Positions 25,365-42,363 of a DNA stretch of 64,000 bases are shown piece after piece. The position numbers were made by a program, and so were the translations under genes. Origin of the DNA: Candidatus Rokuibacteriota bacterium (GTDB lineage: Bacteria; Methylomirabilota; Methylomirabilia; Rokubacteriales; CSP1-6); NCBI GenBank assembly GCA_003220495.1, contig QHSP01000031.1, positions 1 to 64,000 on the forward strand, in the 5' to 3' direction. The notes beneath the pieces are model-generated. The model searched no databases. It was given only the letters and a program-made list of their open reading frames with translations, and was not told the DNA's origin. The first letter of the stretch is position 1. Each line of letters opens with the position of its first letter.

Positions 25365-26300
25365 ATGAAGCTGCTCTTCTTCGACGATTTCAGGCTGGGG
25401 GTGCTCAAGGGCGATGCCGTGGTCGACGTATCGGACGCGGTGAAGGACATACCGCACACCGGGCCGCACAACTTGATAACCGGCTTGATCGAGCGGTTCG
25501 CCGACTACAAAGGGCGCCTGGAAGGCGCGGCCGCGCGCGGCCAGGGCAAGCCGGTCAGCCAAGTTCGGATCAGGCCCCCCCTGCCGAAGCCCTACAACAT
25601 CGTCGCCATGGCCGTGAACTACATGGAGGACGGGACGCGCTCGGAGCCCGCGCCGATCAACGCGTTCCATAAGTCGCCCAACTCGGTCATCGGCGACGGC
25701 GACACGATGGTCCTCCCCGACGCGCCCGCGACGATCTTCGAGGGCGAAGCCGAGATGGCGCTGGTCATCGGCAAGAAGGCGAACGCGGTCAGTGCCGGGC
25801 AGGCGATGAGCTACATCTTCGGCTACATGAACTTCATCGACGGCTCGGCCCGCGGCCTGCCGCCGAGCGGCAACACCTTCTACCAGATGAAGTCGCGCGA
25901 CACCTTCTGCCCGATCGGGCCGTACATCGTGACGGCGGACGAGATCGCCGATCCGCACCGGCTCCAGGTCAAGCTCTGGGTGAACGGCGAGCTCAAGCAG
26001 AACTACAACACGAGCGACATGGCCCACAAGATCCCGCGCTGCATCGAGTGGGTCACCTCGATCCACTCCCTCGACGCCGGCGACGTCATCGCGACCGGCA
26101 CGAACCATCGCGGGCTCAGCGGCTTCCAGAACGGCGATCGCATCGAGATCGAGACCGAGGGGCTCGGCCGGCTGCGCTTCAACATCCGGGACGACCTCAA
26201 GCGGACCTGGGGCCGGGAGACCCGGCTCGACCGTCAGGAAAAGAAGCTCGAGGGCACGACGCCGCAGCTGACCGGGAAGTACACGCCCGCGCCGCGGTAA
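25365..26300 (+). CDS. Fumarylacetoacetate hydrolase (FAH)-family protein
   Basis: The protein has 311 residues, with GCAGGAGGGG before ATG 25365. Metal ligands of the FAH fold are seen in FEGEAEMALVIGK (Glu-x-Glu) and NFIDGSARG (Asp). TFCPIGPYIV, DMAHKIPRCIEWVTSIHSLDAGDVIATGTNHRG and NGDRIEIETEGLGRL are the following conserved blocks. Family members hydrolyse or decarboxylate ring-cleavage products such as fumarylpyruvate, oxalomesaconate or 2-hydroxyhepta-2,4-dienedioate. The exact substrate is not resolvable. The gene stands alone but fits the aromatic-catabolism theme of the region. Confidence 0.9.
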   Translation: MKLLFFDDFRLGVLKGDAVVDVSDAVKDIPHTGPHNLITGLIERFADYKGRLEGAAARGQGKPVSQVRIRPPLPKPYNIVAMAVNYMEDGTRSEPAPINAFHKSPNSVIGDGDTMVLPDAPATIFEGEAEMALVIGKKANAVSAGQAMSYIFGYMNFIDGSARGLPPSGNTFYQMKSRDTFCPIGPYIVTADEIADPHRLQVKLWVNGELKQNYNTSDMAHKIPRCIEWVTSIHSLDAGDVIATGTNHRGLSGFQNGDRIEIETEGLGRLRFNIRDDLKRTWGRETRLDRQEKKLEGTTPQLTGKYTPAPR

Positions 26301-26868: not shown

Positions 26869-27735
26869 ATGATCGAGCGGCGACCTTTCGGCAGAACCGG
26901 CCACCTCAGCAGCGTCACCCTCTTCGGCGCCGCCGCGCTGGCGCGCGCGAGTCAGGCCGATGCCGACCGCGCGCTCGACGCGCTCCTGCGCTACGGCGTG
27001 AACCACATCGACACGGCCGCGCGATACGGCGATTCCGAGCTGCGCATCGGACCGTGGATGGCGCGTCACCGGAACGATTTCTTCCTGGCGACGAAGACCG
27101 GCTCGCGGACCGCGAAGGAGGGCCGCGAGGACATCCATCGCTCGCTCGACCGGCTGCGCGTCGACCACGTCGATCTGATCCAGCTGCACTCGCTCGGCCA
27201 CCCGGACGACTGGGACCAGGCGATGGGACCGGACGGTGTGCTCGAGGCGGCGATCGAGGCCCGCCAGCAGGGGCTCACGCGGTTCATCGGCGTGACCGGT
27301 CACGGCTGGACCATCGCCGCCATGCACCGGCGGAGCCTCACGCGCTTCGACTTCGACTCGGTTCTCCTCCCCTACAATTTTTTTATGGCCGAGAACGAGC
27401 GGTATCGCCGGAGCTTCGAGGAAATTGCCGCGATCTGTCGCGAGCGCAACGTCGCCGTGCAGATCATCAAGTCGATCGCGCGCGGCCCGTGGGCGACGTC
27501 GGACCGGACGCATACCACGTGGTACCAGCCGCTCGAGGACCAGGCGGACATCGACCGCGCCGTGCACTGGGTGCTCGGCTTGCCCGGCGTCTTCCTCAAC
27601 ACCGTCGGCGATCTCACGCTCATGCCGAAAGTTCTCGACGCGGCCAGCCGCTTCGAGCGCCGCCCGCCCGACGAGGCAATGGCGGGCATGGTCGAGTCGA
27701 AGCGGCTGACCTCGTTGTTCGGCCTCGCGACCTGA
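26869..27735 (+). CDS. Aldo/keto reductase-family protein
   Basis: ATG 26869 follows CGGAGG, giving 288 residues. It has the AKR barrel: [43 protein letters not shown] with the catalytic Asp and Tyr, FFLATKTG with the Lys, and [11 protein letters not shown] with the His. The C-terminal NADPH site is less typical: [12 protein letters not shown] instead of the standard S/R-rich loop, a pattern known from a radical-ferredoxin-like AKR subgroup. It is the first gene of the plus-strand run ending at 30682. Carbonyl reduction or dehydrogenation is inferred. Confidence 0.85.
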
Positions 27736-27748
27736 GCGCCGCTCGCCG

Positions 27749-28927
27749 ATGCCCCTTTCCACGATCGTCGTGGGCGGCGGGATCGGCGGGCTCTCCCTCG
27801 CACGCGAGCTCGGGCTGGCGGGGCTCCCCGTCGTCGTGCTCGAGCGGGCGCCGAAGCTGGCGACGGTCGGCGCCGGGATCATCATGAATCCGAACGCGAT
27901 GCGCGTGCTCGAGGCCAACGGCCTGGCGCCGTGCGTGCGGTCTCGAAGCGCGCCCTACCTCGCGCGCGACACCTTCGACCACCGTGGACGACAGCTGGCG
28001 ACCCGGGACTACCGCCCGCTCTACGCCGAGGGACGCCTCGCGATCGGGGCGCTGTGTCACCGGGCGCACCTGCACGAGTGCCTGTACGACGGCCTGCCGG
28101 CCGGCACCGTCCATCTCGACACACGCATCGTCGCGCTCGAGGCCGGCGAGGACGGGGTACGCGTCGAGACCGAGCGCGGCGAGGTCTTCGGCGCCGAGGT
28201 CCTGGTCGGCGCCGACGGGATTCGATCCACGGTGCGCGCGCAATTCTTCGGACCGAACGAGCCCGTGTACCTCGGCTACCGATCGCATCGCTTTGTCGTG
28301 CCCAACGTGGGCGGGCTCGAGCATTTCACCGAGTTCCTCGGACACGGCAAGCGCGTCGGGCTCGTCCCGATCGGCGGCGGTCAGCTCTACGTGTGGACGA
28401 CGTTCAATTCTCCGCTGGAGAGTCGCTCGTGGGCGCTCGAGAGCGTGGCGGCGCTCCGAGGCCTGTTCGGCGAGCTCACCGACGGGCGGGTGCAGCGGGC
28501 GTTCGGCGAGCTCACGTCGACCGATGGCGTCGTGTGCACCGACATCGAAGAGGTTCGCCAGGCCGCCTGGGCTCGCGGCCGCGTGGCGCTCCTGGGCGAC
28601 GCGGCCCACGCCCTGACACCGAACATGGGCCAGGGCGCGGGTATGGCGATGGAAGATGCCGCCGTCCTTGCCGAGGAGCTGTCGAGGGCCGCCCGCGGCG
28701 AGACGGGCGTGCGGGAGGCCCTGACGCGCTACGTCGTGCGCCGCCGGCGGCGGGTGGAGACGATCGTCCGGTTGTCGCGCGAGGTCGGCGAGGAGGGCCA
28801 GCTCACCGGCAAGCTGGCCTGCTGGCTCCGCAACCGTCGCATCCGGCGCGAAGGCCGGTCGCCCGAGCGGGCGCGGGCAGCCCTCGAGCGTCTGCTCGCC
28901 TGGCCCCCTCGGGGCGAGCCGGCCTGA
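27749..28927 (+). CDS. FAD-dependent aromatic monooxygenase (salicylate-hydroxylase-like)
   Basis: The 392-residue class A flavoprotein monooxygenase has a dinucleotide motif GGGIGG (9-14) followed by Glu at the end of strand 2 (VVLERAPKL). EVLVGADGIRSTVR is the D-G motif that senses FAD and NADPH, and ALLGDAAHALTPNMGQGAGMAMEDA is the G-D motif. The set is that of para-hydroxybenzoate or salicylate hydroxylases and 6-hydroxynicotinate-type enzymes. No signal peptide. It lies 13 bases after the aldo/keto reductase and 1 base before the ABC ATPase, so an operon is near certain. Confidence 0.9.
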   Translation: MPLSTIVVGGGIGGLSLARELGLAGLPVVVLERAPKLATVGAGIIMNPNAMRVLEANGLAPCVRSRSAPYLARDTFDHRGRQLATRDYRPLYAEGRLAIGALCHRAHLHECLYDGLPAGTVHLDTRIVALEAGEDGVRVETERGEVFGAEVLVGADGIRSTVRAQFFGPNEPVYLGYRSHRFVVPNVGGLEHFTEFLGHGKRVGLVPIGGGQLYVWTTFNSPLESRSWALESVAALRGLFGELTDGRVQRAFGELTSTDGVVCTDIEEVRQAAWARGRVALLGDAAHALTPNMGQGAGMAMEDAAVLAEELSRAARGETGVREALTRYVVRRRRRVETIVRLSREVGEEGQLTGKLACWLRNRRIRREGRSPERARAALERLLAWPPRGEPA

Positions 28928-28928
28928 G

Positions 28929-29699
28929 ATGAGCGCGCCCGCGCTGGAAGTCGTGGGGCTTCGAAAAGCGTACGCGCGCGACGGGCGAACGCGCGAGGTG
29001 CTCGACCTCGCGCGCCTGGCGGTCGCCGACGGGGAGTTCGTCACGGTCGTCGGCCCGAGCGGGTGCGGCAAGAGCACCCTGCTCCACGTCCTCGGGGGGT
29101 TCATTCCGTGTGACGCCGGACAGATCCGCGTTCACGGCCGCGAGGTCGTCGGGCCGGGGCCGGATCGCGGCATGGTGTTCCAGGAGTTCTCGCTCTTCCC
29201 GTGGCGCACGGTGAGCGGCAACGTCGGCTGGGGCCTCGAGGTGCGCGGCGCGCCGGCGGCGGAGCGAACCGCGGTCGTGAACCGGTATCTCGAGCTGACC
29301 GGGCTCTCGGAGTTCCGCGATCACCTACCGGCCGAGCTTTCCGGCGGGATGAAGCAGCGGGTGGCGCTCGCCCGCGTGCTCGCCTTCGATCCCGAGGTGC
29401 TCCTGATGGACGAGCCGTTCGGATCGCTCGACGCGCAGACGCGGGAGACGATGCAGGAGGAGCTGACCGCCATCTGGGAACGGACGCGGAAGACGATCTT
29501 CTTCGTCACCCACGACATCGACGAGGCGGTCTATCTGGGCGACCGCGTCGTCGTGCTCAGCGCCCGTCCAGCGCGGATCCGCGAAGAGGTCGCGATCGAG
29601 CTGCCGCGGCCGCGCGGCGTCGCGGTGCGGAAGTCGATCGCATTTCTGGAGTGCCGCAATCGAATCTGGGACCTGATCCGAGAGGAGAAGCCATCGTGA
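28929..29699 (+). CDS. ABC transporter ATP-binding protein, nitrate/taurine type
   Basis: The 256 residues show Walker A GPSGCGKST, Q-loop VFQEFSLFPW, signature LSGGMKQR, Walker B VLLMDEPFG, D-loop SLDAQ and switch His in FVTHDIDEAV. It belongs to the SsuB/TauB/NrtD family that energises uptake of sulfonates, nitrate or aromatic acids. Its stop overlaps the GTG of the binding-protein gene. The permeases are encoded on the opposite strand, just beyond (30702-32257). Confidence 0.95.
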   Translation: MSAPALEVVGLRKAYARDGRTREVLDLARLAVADGEFVTVVGPSGCGKSTLLHVLGGFIPCDAGQIRVHGREVVGPGPDRGMVFQEFSLFPWRTVSGNVGWGLEVRGAPAAERTAVVNRYLELTGLSEFRDHLPAELSGGMKQRVALARVLAFDPEVLLMDEPFGSLDAQTRETMQEELTAIWERTRKTIFFVTHDIDEAVYLGDRVVVLSARPARIREEVAIELPRPRGVAVRKSIAFLECRNRIWDLIREEKPS

Positions 29700-30682
29700 A
29701 CCGCCGGATGATCCTCGGCCTCGTCTGTCTGGCCGGCCTGCTGGCCGTCACGCCGCTCGCCGCTGACGCGGCCGATCCGCCCCTGATTCGCTTCGGCCAC
29801 GGCTTCGCCGCCGAGGAGCAGGCGTGGCTCATGGCGGCGCGGCCCGATCTAGCGCCCGGCCAGGGAACGAAGTATCGCCTCAAGCTCGTCTCGTTCCAGG
29901 GCAACCCGGAGCGTTTCCAGGCGTACCTCGCGAACGAGCTCGACGGCGGCACCGCCCCGGGCCTCGCCGTGATCTTCGCGCGCGCCCAGGGCCTGGACAT
30001 CAAGATCACCGCCGGGATCTGCCTCGAGGCGGACGGCAAGGACTGGTTCACGACGGCGTACATGGTCCGAGACGAGGCGCCCGTGAAGAGCGTGAAGGAC
30101 CTCAAGGGCGGCACCGCGGGCGTCCTCGGCTTCAAGACCGCGACGGATCTCTGGGTGCGCGCCGCGCTGCTCAACGCCGGGCTCGTTCCCGACAAGGACG
30201 TCAAGGTCGTGCCGATCGCCTTTCCCGCCATGGGTGCCGCGGTCCGCTCGGACAAGGTCAACCTGGGTACCTTCGTGGAGCCGTTCTATTCCGCGGAGGT
30301 CGCGAAGGGCGGCCTGCGGACGCTCTTCACGGCCGTGAAGGCGGTCGGCTACGATCACGAGCTCCTCGACGTGTGGTTCGGCGACAAGTTCCTGAAGGCT
30401 CAGCCCGACGCTGTGCGCGCGTTCCTCGCCGACTACGTCGCGGTGACCCGCTACTATCTGGCCAACACGGAGCAGGCCAAGCGCGATCTGCACAAGGCCG
30501 GCTTCGTCCGTACCCCCCTCGAGATTTATCTCAAAAATGCCGACTGGAAGCGCGATCCCAGCGGCCGGGTCGATGTCGCCAGCCTCCGCAAGCTCGCCGT
30601 CCTCATGCACCAGAAGCTCGGATGGCTCGAGAAGCCGGTCAACGTCGACGAGATGGTCGACCTGGGATATTTGCCGCGATAG
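29696..30682 (+). CDS. ABC transporter substrate-binding protein, NitT/TauT type
   Basis: The start is GTG 29696 inside the ATPase stop, with AGAGGAG upstream, giving 328 residues with signal peptide MNRRMILGLVCLAGLLAVTP (cleavage near ADA). KLVSFQGNPERFQAYLANELDGG, PVKSVKDLKGGTAGVLGFKTATDLWVRAALLNAGLVPDKDVKVVPIAFPAMGAAVRSDKVN are the usual NMT1/OpuAC-like fold elements. The ligand is likely a small organic anion. The aromatic nature is inferred from the dioxygenase and monooxygenase neighbours. Confidence 0.9.
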   Translation: MNRRMILGLVCLAGLLAVTPLAADAADPPLIRFGHGFAAEEQAWLMAARPDLAPGQGTKYRLKLVSFQGNPERFQAYLANELDGGTAPGLAVIFARAQGLDIKITAGICLEADGKDWFTTAYMVRDEAPVKSVKDLKGGTAGVLGFKTATDLWVRAALLNAGLVPDKDVKVVPIAFPAMGAAVRSDKVNLGTFVEPFYSAEVAKGGLRTLFTAVKAVGYDHELLDVWFGDKFLKAQPDAVRAFLADYVAVTRYYLANTEQAKRDLHKAGFVRTPLEIYLKNADWKRDPSGRVDVASLRKLAVLMHQKLGWLEKPVNVDEMVDLGYLPR

Positions 30683-30701
30683 AGCGCCGGTGAACGCGGC
30701 G

Positions 30702-31487
30702 CTACTCCGCGTAGTACGAGTCGAGACGGTCCCAGCGCACGAGCCGATCGCGAAGGCGGACGACCAGGCGATCGAGCGCGACGCCGATGAGCGCGATGAC
30801 GACCACGACCGCCAGCATGCGGTCCGTCTTGAACGAGGCGAGCGAGTACATCACCATGTAGCCGAGCCCGTCGGCCGAGCTGATCATCTCGGTGATGATC
30901 ACGACGATCATCGCGATGGGCAGGGCGATCCGGAAGCCGGCGAAGATGAAGGGCGCCGTCGCCGGGACGACGACGCTCCCGAGAATGCGCGCGCGCGAAG
31001 CGCCCATGTTGGCGGCCGACCAGACGAGGACGCGGTTCACGGCGCGGCCCCCCGCCTGCGTCGTGATCACGATCGGGTAGAGACACTCCAGGAAGATCAA
31101 CAGCACCTTGGAGAGGCTGCCGATACCGAAGAGATAGATGAAGATCGGGAACAACGCGATCTTCGGGATCGGATAGGTCCACGAGAAGAGCGGACCCAGG
31201 GCGGCAGCGACCAGCGCCGAACGCCCCATCAGCACGCCGAGGGCGACGCCCACGACGGCCGCGAGCGCGAAGCCGCCGAGCGCCCGGGCGAGCGAATACC
31301 ACGCCTCGACCAGCGACTCGGGCCGGGTCGCCAGCAGCCCGAGCTGGGAGCCAATGCGCGCGATCGACGGCACGATGAGCGGGCTGAACCAGCCGCTGCG
31401 GGCCGCCGTCTCCCACGCGACCAGCCCGACCGCGAGAAGCGCCACGCGGCGGACCACGGACGCCGGGTCCGACCACAGGACGCTCAT
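30702..31487 (-). CDS. ABC transporter permease, nitrate/taurine type
   Basis: ATG 31487 overlaps the stop of the other permease, giving 261 residues with about six helices. The cytoplasmic EAA loop reads SAANMGASRARILGSVVVPATAPFIFAG. It is the last gene of the minus-strand operon with Rieske dioxygenase genes. It differs clearly from its neighbour permease, so the two may form a heterodimer or serve two importers. Only one ATPase and one binding protein (28929, 29696) are present. Confidence 0.92.
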   Translation of the reverse strand: MSVLWSDPASVVRRVALLAVGLVAWETAARSGWFSPLIVPSIARIGSQLGLLATRPESLVEAWYSLARALGGFALAAVVGVALGVLMGRSALVAAALGPLFSWTYPIPKIALFPIFIYLFGIGSLSKVLLIFLECLYPIVITTQAGGRAVNRVLVWSAANMGASRARILGSVVVPATAPFIFAGFRIALPIAMIVVIITEMISSADGLGYMVMYSLASFKTDRMLAVVVVIALIGVALDRLVVRLRDRLVRWDRLDSYYAE

Positions 31488-32257
31488 CGGCTCGTGGCGT
31501 CCTGCCAGGCGAGGACCCGCCTTCGGACGAGCAGGAGCATCTGATCGCTGGCGTAGCCGAGCGCCGCGACCGCGACGATCGCGACGTACATCAGATCGAA
31601 TCTCAGACTGGACTCCGATTGGCGGATGAGGAATCCGAGGCCGGAGCGCGCGTTGATCATCTCGGTCGAGAAGAGCAGGACGAACGAGAGCGCCAGCGAG
31701 ACCCGAAGCCCGGCGAACACGAGCGGCAGCGCGCTCGGCACCACGACCTTCCGGAAGGTCTGCGAGCGGCGCGCCCCCATGTTGAGACCGCTCCACACCA
31801 TGATCGTGGACGTGCCGCGCGCGCCGTAGTAGGCGTTGATGAAGCACGGATAGAAGCACGCGAGCGCGATGACGGCGATCTTCGAGACGTCACCGATCCC
31901 GACCCAGAGCATCACGATCGGCAGAAAGACGATCTTCGGCACCGGATATGTCAGGAACACGACCGGGCTCAGGAGCTGATCCAGGCTCCGCACGACACCC
32001 GCCAGGAGCCCGAGCCCCACTCCGATCAGCGATCCGATGACAAAACCGGGCAGCGAACGGGCAAGGCTCGCGCCGACATGCGGCAGGAGCTCACCCGACC
32101 GGAGCGCCTCGACGACGTGCCGTGCGATCTCCGCCGGGCTCAGGATGAAGTCGGGATGGTCGAATCGAGTCGCGATCTGCCAGAGCGCAAGCATCGCCAG
32201 GAGCATCGCAAGACCAATCGAGCGAGAGCCAGGGGGGGCGATGTCGGGGCTCGCCAT
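31484..32257 (-). CDS. ABC transporter permease, nitrate/taurine type
   Basis: ATG 32257 overlaps the stop of the dioxygenase beta subunit gene (TGATG), giving 257 residues. Its helices include IGLAMLLAMLALWQIATRF and FVIGSLIGVGLGLLAGVV. EAA loop: SGLNMGARRSQTFRKVVVPSALPLVFAG. It belongs to the SsuC/TauC family. The tight overlap with both the dioxygenase gene and the second permease shows transport and ring oxidation are co-expressed. Confidence 0.92.
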   Translation of the reverse strand: MASPDIAPPGSRSIGLAMLLAMLALWQIATRFDHPDFILSPAEIARHVVEALRSGELLPHVGASLARSLPGFVIGSLIGVGLGLLAGVVRSLDQLLSPVVFLTYPVPKIVFLPIVMLWVGIGDVSKIAVIALACFYPCFINAYYGARGTSTIMVWSGLNMGARRSQTFRKVVVPSALPLVFAGLRVSLALSFVLLFSTEMINARSGLGFLIRQSESSLRFDLMYVAIVAVAALGYASDQMLLLVRRRVLAWQDATSR

Positions 32258-32748
32258 CAAAACAAACACACGATGCCGTCCAGCTCCGCCTCCGAATTGA
32301 CGAGGTCGACGCGCTTCGCGGCGATCCGCAAGCCCTCGGTGCTGCGCCGCAGGCGGTGCTCGACCAGCGCGCCCCACACGCGCTGCCGCTCGCGGCGGTA
32401 CTCGACCAGCACGAGCGTGGAGCCCACACGCACGTCGCCGCTTTCGGCGGCGTCCACGACGCTGACGTTCCCGACCTGATGCACGGTGCGCGGAGCGGGA
32501 ATACGGGCATGCGCGCGCGGGTGCCGGAGCTGGCGAACGCGGACCTCGAGCAGGCGGCGGTCGTCGTAGACGATCGACGAGGTGGTCAGCGGATCGGCCT
32601 GATTCGCCTGCAGCGGAATCCAGTACGTCGCGTCGTCGGTGAAGAGGCCGAGCCACTCGTCGAGCCGCCCCTGGTCGAGCAGCCAGGCCTCGTGATAGAG
32701 AAACTGCTCGATCTCCGAGCGCAGCTCGACGTCGTCCGCCGCGCGCAT
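32257..32748 (-). CDS. Aromatic-ring-hydroxylating dioxygenase, beta subunit
   Basis: The 163 residues have the NTF2-like fold of Rieske dioxygenase small subunits: EIEQFLYHEAWLLDQGRLDEWLGLFTDDATYWIPLQ at the N terminus, YDDRRLLEVRVRQLRHPRAHARIPAPRTVHQVGNVSV in the middle, LVLVEYRRERQRVWGALVEHRLRRS near the end. It is a structural subunit without metal. Its start is 1 base behind the alpha subunit stop. Together they form the terminal oxygenase, but ferredoxin and reductase genes are not in the window. Confidence 0.93.
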   Translation of the reverse strand: MRAADDVELRSEIEQFLYHEAWLLDQGRLDEWLGLFTDDATYWIPLQANQADPLTTSSIVYDDRRLLEVRVRQLRHPRAHARIPAPRTVHQVGNVSVVDAAESGDVRVGSTLVLVEYRRERQRVWGALVEHRLRRSTEGLRIAAKRVDLVNSEAELDGIVCLF

Positions 32749-32749
32749 C

Positions 32750-34057
32750 TCAGGACTCGGCCGTCATGTACTCGAGCCAGGCGGCGAACTGGTTGCGGAT
32801 GTGGACCTCGCTGGTCCCGCTCCGACCCCGGCGCGTGCCCTCGCGATCCGGCAAGTCCCTACCCTGCCCCCGCCCGAGAAACACCCAGTCGGAGCCGCGC
32901 GCACCGAGCCCCTGCTGAGTGCGCTCGTACACCTCGAGGTCGTCGGTGAGTACGGGCGAAGCCGTCCCGTTGACGACGTTCGAGAACGCGATGGTGTCGC
33001 GGAACATCCGCTCCGGCGCGCCCCTGAGCCTGAACGAGTACGCGTACACGACGGTTCGGTCCACCGCGATGGGATGGACGACGCGAAGCTGGCGGAACTG
33101 GCTCATGAAGGAGCAGTTGGGATAGGCGATGCTGTTCCAGCGCAGCTCGCCCAGCACGCGCGCCGCGCCCTCGGGCCCGAGACGTTGCTCCAGCGCGGCG
33201 CGGTACTCCGCGAAGGCCGGATGCGCCAGGGCCGCCACGAGCCGGCTGTCGTCGTGATAGTCGGCCATCCACGAATGTCCGTAGCCGGCGACCCAGAGCC
33301 CGGTGTTCTCCCAGACCTCCCACGGCGCGCCGTTCTGGAGCATCTGGCGCACGCCGATCTCCGAGTACGCGCCCTCGGCGGCTGCCGGCTCCTGGCGCGC
33401 GGCCCAGATGGAGGAGGCGTGCACGAACGCCGGGTGCACGGTGTCGTTGTGGTTCTCGAGCACGAGCTTCCAGTTCCCCTGATAGGCGTGCTTGAAGACG
33501 CCGCCCGCCACCTCGACCTCGCCATCCGGCGCGCGCTCGACGAAATCGTCGAACGACGTCCGCAGCGGGCCGAGAAACTCGGCGAGCGGCGGGCCGTGCT
33601 CGGCGAGCGAGGCGAACAGAAATCCCCGATAGGCTTCGACGCGCGGCACACGGGCGAGGCCGCCGCCGATCGACTCACCGGCCGGACGCGCGTAGCCGTC
33701 AGGCAGCGGCAGGCGTGCGAGGCGGCCGTCGGTGCCGTAGGTCCACCCGTGATACGCGCAGACGAACTCGGCGGTCGTGCCGGCCGCCGTCTCGCACACG
33801 CGTGCGCCGCGGTGAGCACAGCGGTTGACCAGAACGCGCACCGAGCCGTCGGTGTGGCGCGTCACGATGACGGGCTCGCGCCCCATGCGCGTCGTGAAGA
33901 AATCGCCCGGGCTCCGGACCTGGCTCTCGTGGCCGAGGATCAGCCACGCGCGCCCGAAGACCCGGGCCATCTCGAGCTCGAACAGGGTGGGGTCGGTGTA
34001 GACGGCGCGGTGGACCCGGTCGGGCTGAACCAGACCCTTGATGGATTGAATGTTCAC
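32750..34057 (-). CDS. Aromatic-ring-hydroxylating dioxygenase, alpha subunit (Rieske)
   Basis: GTG 34057 is preferred since an upstream in-frame ATG at 34114 would overlap the divergent racemase gene. This gives 435 residues. The Rieske [2Fe-2S] ligands are Cys80, His82, Cys100 and His103. Bridging Asp205 and mononuclear iron His208 and His213 lie in ENHNDTVHPAFVH, with the third ligand Asp probably in the C-terminal VLTDDLE region. It inserts O2 into an aromatic ring as cis-diol or by demethylation. The substrate is unknown. It heads the operon alpha, beta, permease, permease. Confidence 0.93.
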   Translation of the reverse strand: MNIQSIKGLVQPDRVHRAVYTDPTLFELEMARVFGRAWLILGHESQVRSPGDFFTTRMGREPVIVTRHTDGSVRVLVNRCAHRGARVCETAAGTTAEFVCAYHGWTYGTDGRLARLPLPDGYARPAGESIGGGLARVPRVEAYRGFLFASLAEHGPPLAEFLGPLRTSFDDFVERAPDGEVEVAGGVFKHAYQGNWKLVLENHNDTVHPAFVHASSIWAARQEPAAAEGAYSEIGVRQMLQNGAPWEVWENTGLWVAGYGHSWMADYHDDSRLVAALAHPAFAEYRAALEQRLGPEGAARVLGELRWNSIAYPNCSFMSQFRQLRVVHPIAVDRTVVYAYSFRLRGAPERMFRDTIAFSNVVNGTASPVLTDDLEVYERTQQGLGARGSDWVFLGRGQGRDLPDREGTRRGRSGTSEVHIRNQFAAWLEYMTAES

Positions 34058-34099
34058 GGAAGAGTATTGTAGGCGACCACAACCTCGAAGGAGACTCCG

Positions 34100-35188
34100 A
34101 TGAAAATCACGCACGTGACCACCCGCGCGCTGCGCACGCCGGCCGACAACCCGCTCGTGGTGGGCCTGCCCGCGCCTACCGACACGCGCGAGTTCGTCAC
34201 CCTGGAGCTCGGCACCGACCAGGGCGCGGTGGGTCTCGGCCTGACGTTCTTCGGCGGCGCGCTCACCCCGGCGCTCAAGACGGCGGTCGACGAGCTCGCG
34301 CGGCTCACCCTCGGTGAGGATCCGGCTCAGGTGGAGGCGATCACCGCCAAGCTCCGGCGCGCGGCCGGCAGCTCGGGCCCGGGCGGCATCTTTGCCCTGG
34401 CGCTGTCGGCCGTCGACATCGCGTGCTGGGATCTCAAGGGCAAGGCGATGGGCCAGTCCGTGTGCGCCCTACTCGGCGGCCTGCGCGACCGCGTGGCGAC
34501 GTACGCGAGCGGTGCCTTGATGCGTCCGCATCCGATCGACTATCTCGCCAAGGCCGGGCCGCGCCTGAGAGACATGGGGTTCCGTCAGATGAAGATGCAG
34601 TGCGGGAGCGAGCCCACCGTGGCCGCGTCGGTCGAGCGCGTGCGCGTCATGCGCGAGTCGATCGGGCCCGACATCGACCTGATGTGCGACATCAACCAGC
34701 TCTGGAGCGTGAACCAGGCGATCGAGGTCGGGCGGCGCATCGAGCCCTATCACCTCTTTTGGCTCGAGGACCCGACCACGCACGACGACTATCCCGGCAT
34801 GGCCCGCATCGCCGACGCGCTCACGACGCCGATCGCCGCCGGCGAGTATCACTACGGCATCGTGCCCTTCCGCCATCTGCTGGAGCACCGCTCGATCGAC
34901 ATCGTGATGATCGACCTCTTGCGCGTGGGCGGCATCACGCAGTGGATGAAGGTCGCCGGCATGGCCGAGGCGTTCAACCTGCCGGTGGTGAGCCATCTGG
35001 TGCCGGAGATCCACGTCCACCTGGTGGCGGCCATCCCGAACGGGCTCACCGTCGAGTACATGCCGTGGACCTTGAATCTCTACGAGCAAACGCCGCCCAT
35101 CGAAGGCGGTCAGCTCGTGGTGCCGAAGAAGCCGGGGCTCGGGCTCGCGTTCGATCAGGCGGCGATGAAGCGATACCAAATCGGCTGA
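34100..35188 (+). CDS. Mandelate racemase/muconate lactonizing enzyme superfamily member
   Basis: This 362-residue enolase-superfamily protein is alignable with mandelate racemase along its length. Mg ligands are Asp197 (MCDINQ), Glu223 (WLEDP) and Glu249 (AGEYH). The His-Asp dyad is His299 (VVSHL) and Asp272 (IDLLRVGG), and Glu319 corresponds to MR Glu317. In the K-x-K motif the first Lys is Lys165, but the second is Gln167 (MKMQ). That Lys is the second base of racemases, so a one-base reaction such as acid-sugar dehydration or epimerisation by another route is likelier. Divergent from the Rieske operon with about 40 bases between. Confidence 0.9.
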   Translation: MKITHVTTRALRTPADNPLVVGLPAPTDTREFVTLELGTDQGAVGLGLTFFGGALTPALKTAVDELARLTLGEDPAQVEAITAKLRRAAGSSGPGGIFALALSAVDIACWDLKGKAMGQSVCALLGGLRDRVATYASGALMRPHPIDYLAKAGPRLRDMGFRQMKMQCGSEPTVAASVERVRVMRESIGPDIDLMCDINQLWSVNQAIEVGRRIEPYHLFWLEDPTTHDDYPGMARIADALTTPIAAGEYHYGIVPFRHLLEHRSIDIVMIDLLRVGGITQWMKVAGMAEAFNLPVVSHLVPEIHVHLVAAIPNGLTVEYMPWTLNLYEQTPPIEGGQLVVPKKPGLGLAFDQAAMKRYQIG

Positions 35189-36417: not shown

Positions 36418-36574
36418 AGGCGCCTCAGAGTATTCACCGAGCGTGGGTGGCCGTCGAGATAGGCGGATTACCTATGGGGATACCAGGTCTTTTCCTGCTA
36501 GACTCCTGCTTCCCTATGGTTCTTGCCGAACTCCCGAGTTCCGCCTCGGCTCGAAACTTGATAGGGTGGTGGCC

Positions 36575-38791
36575 GTGAATCGCGCGAGGATCCTCTACGA
36601 AGCGCCGCGGGTCGCCGCCAAGCCGGGCGAGACCGTCGTGACCAGCACGTGCGGCCACAACTGCGGTGGCCGGTGCGCCGTCAACGCGCACGTGCGCGAT
36701 GGGCGCATCGTCAAGATCAGCACCGATCCGCGCCGCTGGACGCCGGAGATGCCGCCGCTCCACGCGTGCGTGCGAGGCTTCGGCCAGCTCGAGCGGGTCA
36801 ACCATCCCGACCGTCTGATGCGTCCGCTGCGGCGGACCGGCCCGCGCGGCTCGGGACAGTTCGAGCGGATCACCTGGGACGCGGCGCTCGACGAGGTCGC
36901 GCGCCAGATGCTCCGTGTCCGCGCCACGTACGGGCCCGCCGCGATCCTCGACTGCTCGCGCACCGGCAGCCTGTCGACTTTGCACGGCCGCGGCGTCAGC
37001 CAGCGGCTCATGCACATGTTCGGCGGCTGCACCGAGCTCTGGAGCAACCTCTCGGCCGAAGCCGAGATCTTCGCCGTCAAGCAGACCTACGGCGCCAAGG
37101 CGGAGTACAAGAGCGCCGGGCGCGAGCCCATCGACTACGTCAACTCGCGGCTCATCGTGATGTGGGGCTGGAGCCCGGGCGACGGCACGTTCGGCACGGG
37201 GACCATGCAGTACCTCAAGCGCGCCAAGGACCACGGGGTGCGCATCGTCTGCGTCGACCCGCGCCAGACGCGCTCGAGCCGCCAGCTGGCCGACGAGCAC
37301 GTCTTCATCCGTCCCTCCACGGACGCCGCGGCCTTGATCGCCATGGCCTACGTCATCGCGAGCCACGGGCTGCAAGACCAGGCCTACCTCGACCGCTACG
37401 TGCTTGGCTTCGACGAGGCGCACCTGCCGCCGGCCGCGCCGGCGGGCGCGTCGTACCGCGCCTACCTCATGGGCGAGGCGGACGGCGTCCGGAAGACGCC
37501 CGCGTGGGCCGAGAAGATCACCGGGATGCCGGCCGCCACGCTCGAGCGGCTCGCCATCGAGTTCGCGACCAGCAAGCCGGCCGCGCTCCACTGCGGCTAT
37601 GCGCCGGGCCGCACGTTCCACGGCGAGCAGTTCCACCGCGCGGCCTATGCGCTCGCCGCGCTGACGGGGAACGTCGGGATTCCCGGCGGCAACTCCGGCA
37701 CCAGCAACGGCGCGACCGGACGCTGCGGGATCCGTCTCTTGCCGGCCGGGACCAATCCGACCGGGGCGCGTGTCGCCTCGTCGATGCTCGCCGATCTCCT
37801 CGATCGCGGCCGGGCCGGCGGCTACCCGGCCGACATCAAGCTGATCTACTCGGTGGCCGGCGACCTCTTCAACCAGGCCCCGAACGTGCGCCGGATCGCG
37901 GACGCCGCCCAGCGCCTGGAGTTCATGGTGGTCCACGACAACTTCATGACGCCGACGGCGCGGCATGCGGACATCGTGCTGCCAGCGACCACCTTCTGGG
38001 AACGTAACGACGTCCACACGCCCTGGGCCGGCGCAGGTCACTACGCGATCTTCATGAAGCAGGCGATCGAGCCGATGGGCGAGTGCCGGAACGACTTCGA
38101 CATCTGCAGCGAGCTCGCGCGCCGGCTCGGGATCAGCGGGTACAACGACAAGACCGAGGACGAGTGGCTGCGCGAGCTGACCGGCGGTGTGATCGACGAC
38201 TTCGACACGTTCCGCGAACGCGGGCTGGCGCGTTTGCCGGCCCCCGACGACGCCGTCGCCTTCGCGCGCGAGATCCGCGACCCCGAGCACCATCCGTTCA
38301 CCACGCCGTCCGGGAAGATCGAGATCTACTCGATGAGCCTGGCCGCGAAGCCCGATCCCTACGGGCTCGGCGTCATCCCGCCGATCCCGACGTGGATCGC
38401 GGACGCGACCGACGCGCGATATCCGTTGAGCCTGGTCACGCCCAAGTCGCGCGCCCGCACGCATTCGATCCACGGCAACCAGCCGATCCTCGCGCGGGCC
38501 GACTCCGACGACGTGTGGATCAACATCGCCGACGCGGCCGCGCGCGGGATCGTCGATGGCCAGCTCGTGCGCGTCTTCAACGCGCGGGGGACCACGCGGC
38601 TCCCGGCGCGGGTGACGGACCGGATCGCGCCGGGCGTCGTCTCCATCAAGGAAGGCGCCTGGTTCGCGCCGGACGCCTCGGGAGCCGACACGCGCGGCTG
38701 CGCCAACGTGCTCACCGCCGACCGCACGTCGCCGGCCGGCGCGGCGCCGTTCAACTCCTGCTTCGTGGACGTCGCGCCGGCGCTCCCCTGA
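36575..38791 (+). CDS. Molybdopterin oxidoreductase, DmsA/DMSO-reductase-like
   Basis: GTG 36575 gives 738 residues. [4Fe-4S] ligands are Cys26, Cys30, Cys34 and Cys65 (CGHNCGGRC and HACVRG). The molybdopterin domains follow: DPRQTRSSRQLADEHVFIRPSTDAAALIAMAYVI, YAPGRTFHGEQFHRAAYALAALTGNVGIPGGNSG, VLPATTFWERND, and the C-terminal barrel with VTPKSRARTHSIHGNQ. The central part is very like E. coli DmsA, including the LPPAAPAG and TPAWAEKITGMPA stretches. No Tat signal precedes the iron-sulfur motif, and no DmsB/DmsC gene is adjacent. Substrate and electron donor are unknown. Confidence 0.9.
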   Translation: MNRARILYEAPRVAAKPGETVVTSTCGHNCGGRCAVNAHVRDGRIVKISTDPRRWTPEMPPLHACVRGFGQLERVNHPDRLMRPLRRTGPRGSGQFERITWDAALDEVARQMLRVRATYGPAAILDCSRTGSLSTLHGRGVSQRLMHMFGGCTELWSNLSAEAEIFAVKQTYGAKAEYKSAGREPIDYVNSRLIVMWGWSPGDGTFGTGTMQYLKRAKDHGVRIVCVDPRQTRSSRQLADEHVFIRPSTDAAALIAMAYVIASHGLQDQAYLDRYVLGFDEAHLPPAAPAGASYRAYLMGEADGVRKTPAWAEKITGMPAATLERLAIEFATSKPAALHCGYAPGRTFHGEQFHRAAYALAALTGNVGIPGGNSGTSNGATGRCGIRLLPAGTNPTGARVASSMLADLLDRGRAGGYPADIKLIYSVAGDLFNQAPNVRRIADAAQRLEFMVVHDNFMTPTARHADIVLPATTFWERNDVHTPWAGAGHYAIFMKQAIEPMGECRNDFDICSELARRLGISGYNDKTEDEWLRELTGGVIDDFDTFRERGLARLPAPDDAVAFAREIRDPEHHPFTTPSGKIEIYSMSLAAKPDPYGLGVIPPIPTWIADATDARYPLSLVTPKSRARTHSIHGNQPILARADSDDVWINIADAAARGIVDGQLVRVFNARGTTRLPARVTDRIAPGVVSIKEGAWFAPDASGADTRGCANVLTADRTSPAGAAPFNSCFVDVAPALP

Positions 38792-38897
38792 CCGTGCTCT
38801 AGCCCGTGGCGCTCCGGGCCCGGCGACAGTTGTGGCGACACGTGTTGCTCTCGACCACTTCATCCGCAGTCTCACCGCCACCGGCGCGAGCTGAGCC

Positions 38898-39860
38898 GTG
38901 GAGCCGGGACTGAGAACGTACATCCTCAAGCGCGTCGGCTTCGCCGTCCTGATGCTCGTCGGCGTCTCGATCATCCTGTTCACGATCATGCGGCTGGCTC
39001 CCGGCGGGCCCGAGGCGGTGCTGATCGGCGGCGAGTTCTCGCAGGAGGCCGCCGCGCAGATCCGCCAGCGGCTGGGGCTCGACCGCCCGATCGCGCTGCA
39101 GTATCTCGGCTGGGCCGGCGCGGCCCTGCGCGGCGATCTCGGGCGCTCGTTCAAGACCGGCGACCCGGTCGCCGCGCTGATCCGCGATCGCCTCGGCCCG
39201 ACGATCCAGCTCACCTTCGGCGCGCTCGCCCTGGCGCTCGCCGTCGCCGTCCCGCTCGGGGTCCTCGCGGCGGTTCGGCGCGGCACGATCTGGGACACGC
39301 TCGGCTCGGCGGTCGCGCTGTTCGGCGTGTCGTTTCCGAGCTTCTGGCTCGGGATCATGCTGATCCTCCTCTTCTCCGAGGTCTTCCATCTCCTGCCGCC
39401 CTCGGGGCTCAGCGAGTATGGACGGGAGGGCGACCTGACCGCCCGCGTGCGACACGCGATCCTGCCAACCTTGACGCTCGGCTTGATCCAGATGGCGTCG
39501 TTCATGCGCTTCACGCGCTCGAGCCTGCTCGAGGTGCTGCGTCAGGACTACGTGCGGACGGCGCGCGCCAAGGGGCTCGGCGGCGGCCAGGTCGTCTGGC
39601 GTCACGCGCTCCGCAACGCGCTCATTCCGGTGGTGACGGTGGTCGGTCTCTCGCTGCCGACACTGGTCGGCGGCGCCGTGCTCACCGAAACCGTCTTCGC
39701 CTGGCCGGGCATCGGGCGCCTGGCGGTCGGCGCCGTCTTCGAGCGCGACTACCCGGTGATCATGGGCGTCAACCTCATGGTCGCCGCCGTCGTGATCACC
39801 GCAAATCTGATCACCGACCTCGCCTACTGCGTGATCGATCCGCGGATCTCCTATCAGTGA
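38898..39860 (+). CDS. ABC transporter permease, dipeptide type (DppB-like)
   Basis: The start is GTG 38898, giving 320 residues with six helices. MEPGLRTYILKRVGFAVLMLVGVSIILFTIMRLAPGGPE is the conserved DppB N terminus. RTARAKGLGGGQVVWRHALRNALIPVVTVVGL is the EAA loop. It overlaps the next permease by 4 bases. It belongs to a set of permease B, permease C and binding protein (38898-42363) that has no ATPase genes. Confidence 0.93.
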   Translation: MEPGLRTYILKRVGFAVLMLVGVSIILFTIMRLAPGGPEAVLIGGEFSQEAAAQIRQRLGLDRPIALQYLGWAGAALRGDLGRSFKTGDPVAALIRDRLGPTIQLTFGALALALAVAVPLGVLAAVRRGTIWDTLGSAVALFGVSFPSFWLGIMLILLFSEVFHLLPPSGLSEYGREGDLTARVRHAILPTLTLGLIQMASFMRFTRSSLLEVLRQDYVRTARAKGLGGGQVVWRHALRNALIPVVTVVGLSLPTLVGGAVLTETVFAWPGIGRLAVGAVFERDYPVIMGVNLMVAAVVITANLITDLAYCVIDPRISYQ

Positions 39861-40720
39861 CGGCCGAGGCGCACGCGGAGCGGCCGTCGGTCTTGCGTCG
39901 GTTCACACGCAACCGGCGAGGCCTCGTCGGCGGCGTGGTCGTGGCCGTCATGGTCACCGCCGGCGCGCTCGCACCGGTGCTGGCACCGCAGAGCTACTCC
40001 GCGCAGTCGCTGTTGAATCGGCTCAAGCCGCCGAGCGCCGCGCACTGGCTCGGGACCGACGGGTTCGGCCGCGACGTCCTGAGCCGGGTGATCTGGGGCA
40101 GCCGCGTCTCGCTCGAGATCGGTCTCGTCGCCACCGCGCTGGCGCTCGTCGTGGGCACCGTGGTGGGCAGCGTCGCCGGCTACTTCGGCGGCGCCACCGA
40201 CACCGCGATCATGCGCGCCGCCGACGTCTTCCTCTCCGTCCCGGCGCTGTTCCTCATCCTCATCGTGGTGGCGCTCTTCGGCGCGAGCCTCGCCAACACC
40301 GCGCTCGTCATCGCGCTCGTCACCTGGGCGCCGGTCGGGCGCATCGTGCGCAGTGAGTGCCTGAGCCTTCGCAACCGCGACTTCGTCCACGCGGCCGCGG
40401 CGCTCGGCGCCGGGCACGCGCGCATCCTCGGCCGCCACCTGCTCGTGAACGCGCTGCCGATCGTGATCGTCCAGGCCAGTCTCTTGCTGGGCCAGACAAT
40501 CCTGATCGAGTCGGGCCTGAGCTATCTCGGGCTCGGCGCCCAGCCCCCGCTCCCGAGCTGGGGCAACATGGTCGTCGAAGGGCGGCAGTTCCTGGCCTTG
40601 GCCTGGTGGATCGCGACGTTCCCCGGGCTCGCCATCTTCGTCACGGTGCTGGGATTCAACCTGTTCGGCGACGGGCTGCGCGACGCATCGGATCCGACGT
40701 TGCGCGGGCGCACGCCGTAA
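39857..40720 (+). CDS. ABC transporter permease, dipeptide type (DppC-like)
   Basis: The GTG start at 39857 lies within the stop of the previous gene; 287 residues. DppC pattern: RRFTRNRRGLVGGVVVAVMVTAGALAPVLAP, LGTDGFGRDVLSRVIWGSRVSLEIGLVA, and the EAA loop AAALGAGHARILGRHLLVNALPIVIV. It ends with NLFGDGLRDASDPTLRG, the usual DppC tail. Partner of the DppB-like permease in the inner membrane. Confidence 0.93.
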   Translation: MTAEAHAERPSVLRRFTRNRRGLVGGVVVAVMVTAGALAPVLAPQSYSAQSLLNRLKPPSAAHWLGTDGFGRDVLSRVIWGSRVSLEIGLVATALALVVGTVVGSVAGYFGGATDTAIMRAADVFLSVPALFLILIVVALFGASLANTALVIALVTWAPVGRIVRSECLSLRNRDFVHAAAALGAGHARILGRHLLVNALPIVIVQASLLLGQTILIESGLSYLGLGAQPPLPSWGNMVVEGRQFLALAWWIATFPGLAIFVTVLGFNLFGDGLRDASDPTLRGRTP

Positions 40721-40737
40721 CCCACGGAGGACCGACG

Positions 40738-42363
40738 GTGATCCATCCCATCCTGATCGCGCTGCTCGCCACTAGCATCGGCCTGACGCCCACGGCGAGT
40801 CTCGCCGCCGGCAAGGACTTCGTGATCGGACTCAGCGGCGACGCCACGTCGCTGAACCCGGTCGTGGCGACCGACGGCCAGTCGTACATCGCCGAGTGGC
40901 CGCTGTTCGACAGCCTGGTCGAGCTCGATCAGGGCCTCAACGTGAAGCCGCTCCTGGCCGAGTCGTGGGAGGTGTCGCGCGACGGGCTCACGTACACGTT
41001 CAAGCTCAAGCGCGGCGTGAAGTGGCACGACGGCAAGCCGTTCACCGCCCGTGACGTCGCGTTCACGTTCTACTCGGTCCTCGATCCCAAGGTCACCACG
41101 CCGCATCGCGCCTACTTCGACGCGCTCGCCGGATTCCCCGAGCTGACGGCGAAGGAGAATCCCAAGCGGCCGGAAGAGCTGGCCGTCCGACCCATCGAGG
41201 TCATCGACGACCATACCGTGCGCTTCCGGCTGCGCTATCCGTCGGGGTCGTTTCTGGCGGTGCTCGTCAATCCGCGCGCGGGGATCGTTCCCGAACACAT
41301 CCTCAAGGGCACCGATCTCAACACCGCCGAGTTCAACCGGCGTCCGATCGGGACTGGCCCCTTCAGGCTGGTCGAGTGGCGACGGGGCGAGCGCCTGGTG
41401 ATGGAGGCGAACGCCGAGTATCACGGCGGCCGGCCGGCCCTCGACCACTTGATCTTCCGGATCATCCCCGACAGCGTCGTCCTCCTCCAGGAGCTGCGAG
41501 CCGGCGGCGTGGACTTCATCGAGAATCCGCCGCTGACCGAAGTGGCGCGGCTCAAGCAGACGCCGAATCTCAAGGTGCTCGCGGCCGACAACACCTCGTA
41601 CACGTATTTCGGCTGGCGTCAGGATCTGGCGCCGTTCACGGACGTTCGCGTGCGCCGCGCGCTCTACCACGCGATCGACGTGCCGAGCATCGTCCGCGAG
41701 GTGCTCCAGGGTTACGCCGCCGTCGCGACCGGCCAGTTCCCGCCGTCGAGCTGGGCGTTCGATCCGAGCGTGAAGCCGTACGCCTACGACCCGGCGCGCG
41801 CGAAGGCTCTCCTGGCGGAGGCCGGCTTCAAGCCGGGCCCCGACGGCGTGCTGGCCAAGGACGGCAAGCGGTTCAGCTTCTCCGTGCGCCACGACCAGGC
41901 GAACCAGAGCGTGAAGGACACGGCCGTCATCATCCAGGAGTACCTCAAGCGCGTCGGCGTCGAGGTGCAGCTCGAGCCGCTGGACTGGCCGACGTTCGTC
42001 AAAAAGCTCTTCGCCTCCGAGTTCGAGGGCATCGTCGTCGGCTGGACCAACCACCACGATCCCGACCCGTTCGCCTACACCATCTGGCACTCGAGCCAGT
42101 GGAAAGGCCGCAACTTCGCCCACTACAAGAACGCGCGGGTGGACGAGGCGCTCGAGGCGGCGCGCCGCACCGGCGTGACGGCCGAGCGCAAGAAGCACTA
42201 CGCGGAGCTCTCGAAGCTCCTGATGGAAGACGCGCCGTACGTCTTCCTCTACTTCCCGCAGCAGGTGTACGTGACGCGCGCGGGCTACGAGGGGTTCGTG
42301 CCGATTCCGACGTTCGCCGGCATCTACCAGTCGCTGAAGAGTGTGCGCTGGACGGGGAGGTGA
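40738..42363 (+). CDS. ABC transporter substrate-binding protein, family 5
   Basis: GTG 40738 follows ACGGAGGA, giving 541 residues with a signal peptide (cleavage near ASLAAG). Family 5 landmarks: LLAESWEVSRDGLTYTFKLKRGVKWHDGKPFTARDVAFTFY, NRRPIGTGPFRLVEWRRGERLVMEANAEYHGGRP and VRVRRALYHAID. It is the periplasmic receptor for the two permeases directly upstream. Peptide is the default ligand; many soil relatives bind other solutes. Confidence 0.93.
   Translation: MIHPILIALLATSIGLTPTASLAAGKDFVIGLSGDATSLNPVVATDGQSYIAEWPLFDSLVELDQGLNVKPLLAESWEVSRDGLTYTFKLKRGVKWHDGKPFTARDVAFTFYSVLDPKVTTPHRAYFDALAGFPELTAKENPKRPEELAVRPIEVIDDHTVRFRLRYPSGSFLAVLVNPRAGIVPEHILKGTDLNTAEFNRRPIGTGPFRLVEWRRGERLVMEANAEYHGGRPALDHLIFRIIPDSVVLLQELRAGGVDFIENPPLTEVARLKQTPNLKVLAADNTSYTYFGWRQDLAPFTDVRVRRALYHAIDVPSIVREVLQGYAAVATGQFPPSSWAFDPSVKPYAYDPARAKALLAEAGFKPGPDGVLAKDGKRFSFSVRHDQANQSVKDTAVIIQEYLKRVGVEVQLEPLDWPTFVKKLFASEFEGIVVGWTNHHDPDPFAYTIWHSSQWKGRNFAHYKNARVDEALEAARRTGVTAERKKHYAELSKLLMEDAPYVFLYFPQQVYVTRAGYEGFVPIPTFAGIYQSLKSVRWTGR

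Follow-up and report, generated by a model that had tools for sequence, protein, structure and literature searches.

A seven-gene Rokubacteria cassette with a conserved, convergently split ABC importer and a Rieske oxygenase

Rokubacteria are uncultured soil bacteria which are known mostly from metagenomes. We analyzed a stretch of 64,000 nucleotides (the window) from a Rokubacteria MAG, a draft genome of 5.98 Mb that is 98% complete and has MAGs of Candidatus Rokuibacteriota as its closest named relatives. All nine genes from an aldo/keto reductase gene (AKR) to a mandelate-racemase-type gene (MR) are intact and belong to the families that were first noted for them. The features of this region are:

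25365..26300, + strand: FAH-family hydrolase (PF01557, E 3e-50); flank, outside the cassette, first gene of an older FAH-AKR-MR unit
26869..27735, + strand: AKR (aldo/keto reductase; PF00248); flank, older unit
27736..34065, no strand: cassette, about 6.33 kb extra compared with the genus-mate G054 (DNA alignment, both junctions)
27749..28927, + strand: class A FAD-dependent monooxygenase, FMO (PF01494, E 1e-29)
28929..29699, + strand: ABC importer ATPase, TauB/NrtD/SaoA-like (PF00005)
29696..30682, + strand: periplasmic binding protein (SBP) of the NMT1/SsuA type (PF13379/PF09084) with a signal-peptide-like N-terminus
30702..31493, - strand: ABC permease A, PermA (PF00528)
31484..32269, - strand: ABC permease B, PermB (PF00528)
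32257..32748, - strand: Rieske oxygenase (RO) beta subunit (PF00866, E 1e-28)
32750..34057, - strand: Rieske oxygenase alpha subunit, IadD-like (PF00355 and PF00848), GTG start
34066..34099, + strand: leader of the MR gene, common to the window and the cassette-free G054
34100..35188, + strand: MR, mandelate-racemase/sugar-acid-dehydratase-type gene (PF13378/PF02746); flank, older unit

The genes FMO-ATPase-SBP on the plus strand and PermA-PermB-RO beta-RO alpha on the minus strand face each other, with exactly 19 bp (30683-30701) between the stop codons of SBP and PermA. The plus-strand genes are spaced by 13 bp (AKR/FMO), 1 bp (FMO/ATPase) and -4 bp (ATPase/SBP). On the minus strand the spacings are -10 bp (PermA/PermB), -13 bp (PermB/RO beta) and 1 bp (RO beta/RO alpha), whereby the start codons of PermA and PermB were set by overlap and conservation and could move by several codons. 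For RO alpha the listed open reading frame reaches 34114; we chose the GTG start, which places the beginning of the gene at 34057 and leaves 42 bp to the divergent MR gene. The two permeases are distinct from each other and both TauC/SsuC-like. The earlier note had described convergent genes with a gap of 19 bases and overlapping or near-touching frames, two distinct permeases and a mandelate-racemase-type gene divergent from the minus-strand operon, and this description was confirmed at the level of single bases.

Some sequence elements of the region deserve mention. On the reverse strand (34058-34072) a TACAAT sequence a few bases ahead of the RO alpha GTG resembles a -10 box which, if used, would yield a leaderless RO alpha transcript; it could be a coincidence, since the identical bases are present in the cassette-free G054. 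A terminator-like hairpin lies on the minus strand within the SBP gene (30543-30562), about 140 bases beyond the PermA stop codon, and if it is real the convergent transcripts overlap. The region holds eight terminator-like sites, with 3.9 +/- 2.7 expected. Beyond MR, at 36566-42363, the window encodes a DmsA-like molybdopterin oxidoreductase followed by Opp/Dpp-type permeases and a binding protein. These genes are kept near MR in several genus-mates, and G054 matches only a piece of 90 residues of the oxidoreductase.

We compared the arrangement of the importer genes across lineages. The seven-gene order of the window is present in seven genomes of the genus (the others being AR14, AR23, AR34, AR22, AR27 and G048), with one extra gene between SBP and PermA in AR34, where it is of the MlaC type, and in G048. 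The identical arrangement with 70-80% identity is found in G063, which belongs to another genus of the same family. G092, from another family of the same order, has PermB-PermA facing ATPase-SBP, and a TPP enzyme gene overlaps its SBP gene. Six betaproteobacterial loci (L014, L015, L018, L179, L181 and L182) show the order ATPase-SBP-PermA-PermB along the DNA; compared with the Rokubacteria the SBP gene is inverted and lies on the permease side, with PermB-PermA-SBP facing the ATPase. Three of these loci (L015, L179 and L182) have the FMO gene on the far side of the ATPase; in L014 and L018 it is missing next to the importer. Wherever both were present in the orthologous loci that were read, the ATPase gene thus pointed towards the permease genes.

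SBP orthologues with more than 70% identity (71-93%) occur in nine of the 95 genomes of the phylum and PermA orthologues in the identical nine, namely in seven of the nine genus genomes, in G063 and in G092. The SBP orthologue is rare (three of 399 genomes sampled from the order to which L015 belongs). The split of the importer over two transcripts, as claimed in the earlier note, was thus borne out by the co-occurrence of both halves; in the orthologous loci no unrelated ATPase or binding protein was seen with the permeases, and RO and FMO genes accompany them in most. The recurrence of the cassette exceeds chance, the split importer is real and conserved, and recognisable copies of the cassette exist in other bacterial lineages.

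Several loci found in this comparison have features of their own. In AR27/G053 (L019, 10037-11123) RO alpha is in two frames and about 75 residues are absent between the matched parts, possibly a pseudogene or an assembly fault. In G092 a benzoylformate-decarboxylase-like TPP enzyme and a PaaA-like protein (L146, 10640-12394 and 6257-7087) adjoin the importer, which hints at a different route for an aromatic acid with the same importer. Upstream of the permeases, L015 (1577-3374) and L180 (1-1318) hold another RO alpha/beta pair, which is more distantly related (35-40%), at the position which is occupied by the RO pair in the Rokubacteria. A plasmid of the haloarchaeon Halostella pelagica (L128, L172) combines an RO alpha/beta pair (30-35%) with two permeases (38-39%) and an SBP (34%) whose gene runs in the other direction from the permease genes.

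With its NMT1/SsuA-type SBP, TauC-like permeases and TauB-like ATPase the importer resembles the SsuABC, TauABC and NrtABCD systems. It differs from them in scoring below all curated sulfonate, taurine and nitrate cut-offs (the ATPase below those of the NF040729, TauB and NtrCD models, the SBP below that of TIGR01728), in having two different permeases and in the strand of the ATPase, which is opposite to that of the permeases. SsuABC-type importers are normally encoded in one operon. For the SsuABC/TauABC type a single operon is usual, if not strictly defining, whereas the importer of the cassette is a convergent split. No protein of the cassette reached an equivalog cut-off of the curated family models, and an attempt to derive the substrate from these models failed, as every equivalog score was under its cut-off. 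AlphaFold, run on the SBP together with nine orthologues, gave an unusable model (mean pLDDT 34.5).

The FMO shares its full-length class A FAD domain (PF01494 over residues 5-342 of 392) with 3-hydroxybenzoate 6-monooxygenase, 6-hydroxynicotinate 3-monooxygenase and salicylate hydroxylase. Its nearest solved relatives are tropone 2-monooxygenase and 6-hydroxynicotinate 3-monooxygenase (about 119 bits), but unlike the known aromatic-acid enzymes it reaches no equivalog and its substrate cannot be read from similarity.

In a BLASTP search against the PDB the closest solved structures of RO alpha were those of IadD (9o71 and 7yls; 328 bits, 37% identity). The Rieske ligands C85/H87/C106/H109 and the iron ligands H216/H221/D377 (IadD numbering) are all conserved, and the beta gene adjoins the alpha gene as is the case for alpha/beta Rieske non-haem iron oxygenases. 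The contacts of IadD in its indole-3-acetate pocket are published (PMC10374108). At these pocket columns the window reads N-H-N-W-M-R-F compared with N-L-F-H-K-R-Y in IadD, and this signature is nearly invariant over the orthologues in Rokubacteria and betaproteobacteria. Neighbours of related ROs on plasmids (pCAR1, Agrobacterium, Sulfitobacter) were also inspected, but these plasmids carry other genes and the ROs other pocket residues, so that no substrate could be named. The benzoate, anthranilate and 3-phenylpropionate dioxygenases BenAB, AntAB and HcaEF likewise pair an alpha with a beta subunit and have Rieske and catalytic domains. On models of this type RO alpha scores only 193-230 bits, far under the equivalog cut-offs of 672-830, and the cassette differs from these systems in having no reductase or ferredoxin next door.

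Do importer and oxygenases act on the same compound? They could be mere neighbours serving different compounds, the importer for example taking up a sulfonate; its family models are those for sulfonate, taurine and nitrate, none of them over cut-off. Importer and RO can be uncoupled: G092 has the importer and only a weak best match to RO, and G042 and five proteobacterial genomes have the RO and lack this SBP. On the other hand, two phyla have loci in which the RO genes are joined to those of the importer, and SBP and RO orthologues co-occur in six of the 11 RO-bearing proteobacterial genomes. Moreover, among the five RO-bearing proteobacterial genomes without this SBP one has an unchanged pocket, and in the other four a pocket residue is altered (W to F in three, H to L in one). 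This tracking of pocket changes with SBP absence lends modest support to a substrate shared by oxygenase and importer, and we regard separate compounds as unlikely.

The limits of the unit became apparent from relatives without the cassette. In G054, which lacks SBP, PermA, FMO and RO orthologues, FAH, AKR and MR form one contiguous block with a fragment of a molybdopterin oxidoreductase, and AKR and MR are 47 bp apart. In the DNA alignment homology between the window and G054 enters the AKR stop codon (27733) and restarts at 34066 in the MR leader, with about 6.33 kb in the window opposite 12 bp in G054; these junctions mark 27,736-34,065 as a separable unit. In the likewise cassette-free G091 AKR and MR are 46 bp apart, in G087, G086 and G038 the two are separated by a further AKR-type gene and the cassette is again absent, and FAH precedes AKR in G054, G091, G086 and G087. 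We therefore take FAH-AKR-MR as the older unit. The cassette interrupts it, and the pathway unit is 27,736-34,065 and not 26,869-35,188.

The earlier note had joined the genes, AKR and MR included, into a single pathway with side-chain processing. For this view one can cite that AKR and FMO are closely spaced (13 bp) and that the genus conserves the block in its entirety. AKR relatives, however, are found in 39 and MR relatives in 32 of the 95 phylum genomes, mostly without RO, ABC or FMO genes, the two genes are neighbours or close together in the cassette-free genomes mentioned, and they are beside neither the betaproteobacterial cassettes nor the G063 cassette. Side-chain processing by the MR-type enzyme is thus an idea drawn from adjacency. 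We consider a nine-gene pathway improbable.

A separate sugar-acid route is more likely for FAH-AKR-MR. The combination of an enolase-superfamily acid dehydratase, an FAH-family hydrolase and a dehydrogenase is reminiscent of the non-phosphorylating L-fucose and L-rhamnose routes, and by analogy the older unit may be of this kind. MR scores 240.6 bits with the L-talarate/galactarate dehydratase model (cut-off 500) and does not reach the equivalog. Mandelate-racemase relatives carry a KxK motif; the MR protein (34100-35188) reads KMQ at this position, so that glutamine may take the place of its second catalytic lysine.

As to the history of the cassette, we found no direct or inverted repeats of at least 8 bases within 60 bp of its junctions and no foreign base composition (69.3% G+C, flanks 67.9 and 69.2%). 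In the trees of the cassette genes the copies of the genus mostly stay together, which together with the lack of a difference in base composition fits a long residence in the genus. The idea that G054 represents the ancestral empty site was not upheld. The DNA of AKR and MR groups G054 with AR23 inside the cassette bearers, and a tree holding the bearers together was rejected (p-AU 0.007). With this placement, loss or replacement by recombination explains G054 as well as retention. The outgroup genera are also oddly nested in this tree and, together with the position of G054, this makes recombination of the AKR and MR genes likely.

The Variovorax iad system (PDB 7yls, 8h2t and 9o71; PMC10374108, PMC12633357) shares with the cassette the RO subfamily, the metal ligands and the clustering with an ABC importer, and IadDE has recently been reported to act as a monooxygenase. 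That the cassette degrades indole-3-acetate in the manner of iadCDE is nevertheless highly improbable: although IadD is the closest solved relative and Asn210 and Arg329 of its pocket are kept, five of the seven contact residues outside the iron ligands are replaced, and nearly the whole group shares these replacements (L211H, F251N, H311W, K322M and Y362F), the cassette encodes no IadC-type reductase and has an additional FMO, and its SBP is of the NMT1 type whereas IadK2 is a class B-III SBP.

The cassette contains neither a ferredoxin nor a reductase gene. No PF00970-type reductase is encoded anywhere in the genome, and a BenC/IadC-like partner was accordingly not found. The genome has two Reductase_C-type reductases, of which one on contig C5 adjoins a gene for a Rieske ferredoxin of 102 residues, and this pair is the best candidate for an electron donor in trans. 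There is also no reductase among the scanned neighbours of the betaproteobacterial clusters, and electron supply in trans may therefore be usual for the group.

What could the substrate be? Orthologous RO genes stand near TctC (tripartite tricarboxylate-type receptor), CitMHS-type or NMT1 transporter genes, and relatives of the cassette lie near class II aldolase-type genes related to 3,4-dihydroxyphthalate decarboxylase, with PhtC-like scores of 70-77 bits that fall well short of the 200 set as the family cut-off. These neighbours suggest an aromatic carboxylate. The cassette contains no gene for ring cleavage. In an order of steps that we infer from the gene content, the SBP would bind the acid in the periplasm and the two permeases and the ATPase, made from opposing transcripts, would import it. 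The alpha/beta RO, fed by a ferredoxin and a reductase encoded elsewhere, would then oxidise the acid, and the class A FMO would hydroxylate and perhaps decarboxylate the product.

The seven-gene package thus probably serves to import an aromatic acid and to oxidise it. On balance we favour, with reasonable though far from complete confidence, the reading that it is a self-contained unit by which an aromatic carboxylate is taken up and oxygenated, placed between AKR and MR of the older FAH-AKR-MR unit. More speculatively, it might be a phylum-crossing cassette for an undescribed aromatic acid in which selection has kept the facing importer halves 19 bp apart, perhaps coupling the expression of uptake and oxygenation; this we put forward only tentatively. 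A literature search gave no paper on this cluster in Rokubacteria. Clusters for uptake and oxygenation of aromatic acids are already known as a type, and the unusual part is the conserved convergent importer.

The comparison defines, next to the IadD group of auxin degraders, a group of Rieske oxygenases whose pocket is conserved and distinct. At the same time it illustrates that adjacency misleads, because two of nine seeming pathway genes are in an older unit, which was revealed only by the relatives without the cassette. For the Rokubacteria the cassette provides a concrete and testable unit for aromatic-acid uptake and oxygenation.
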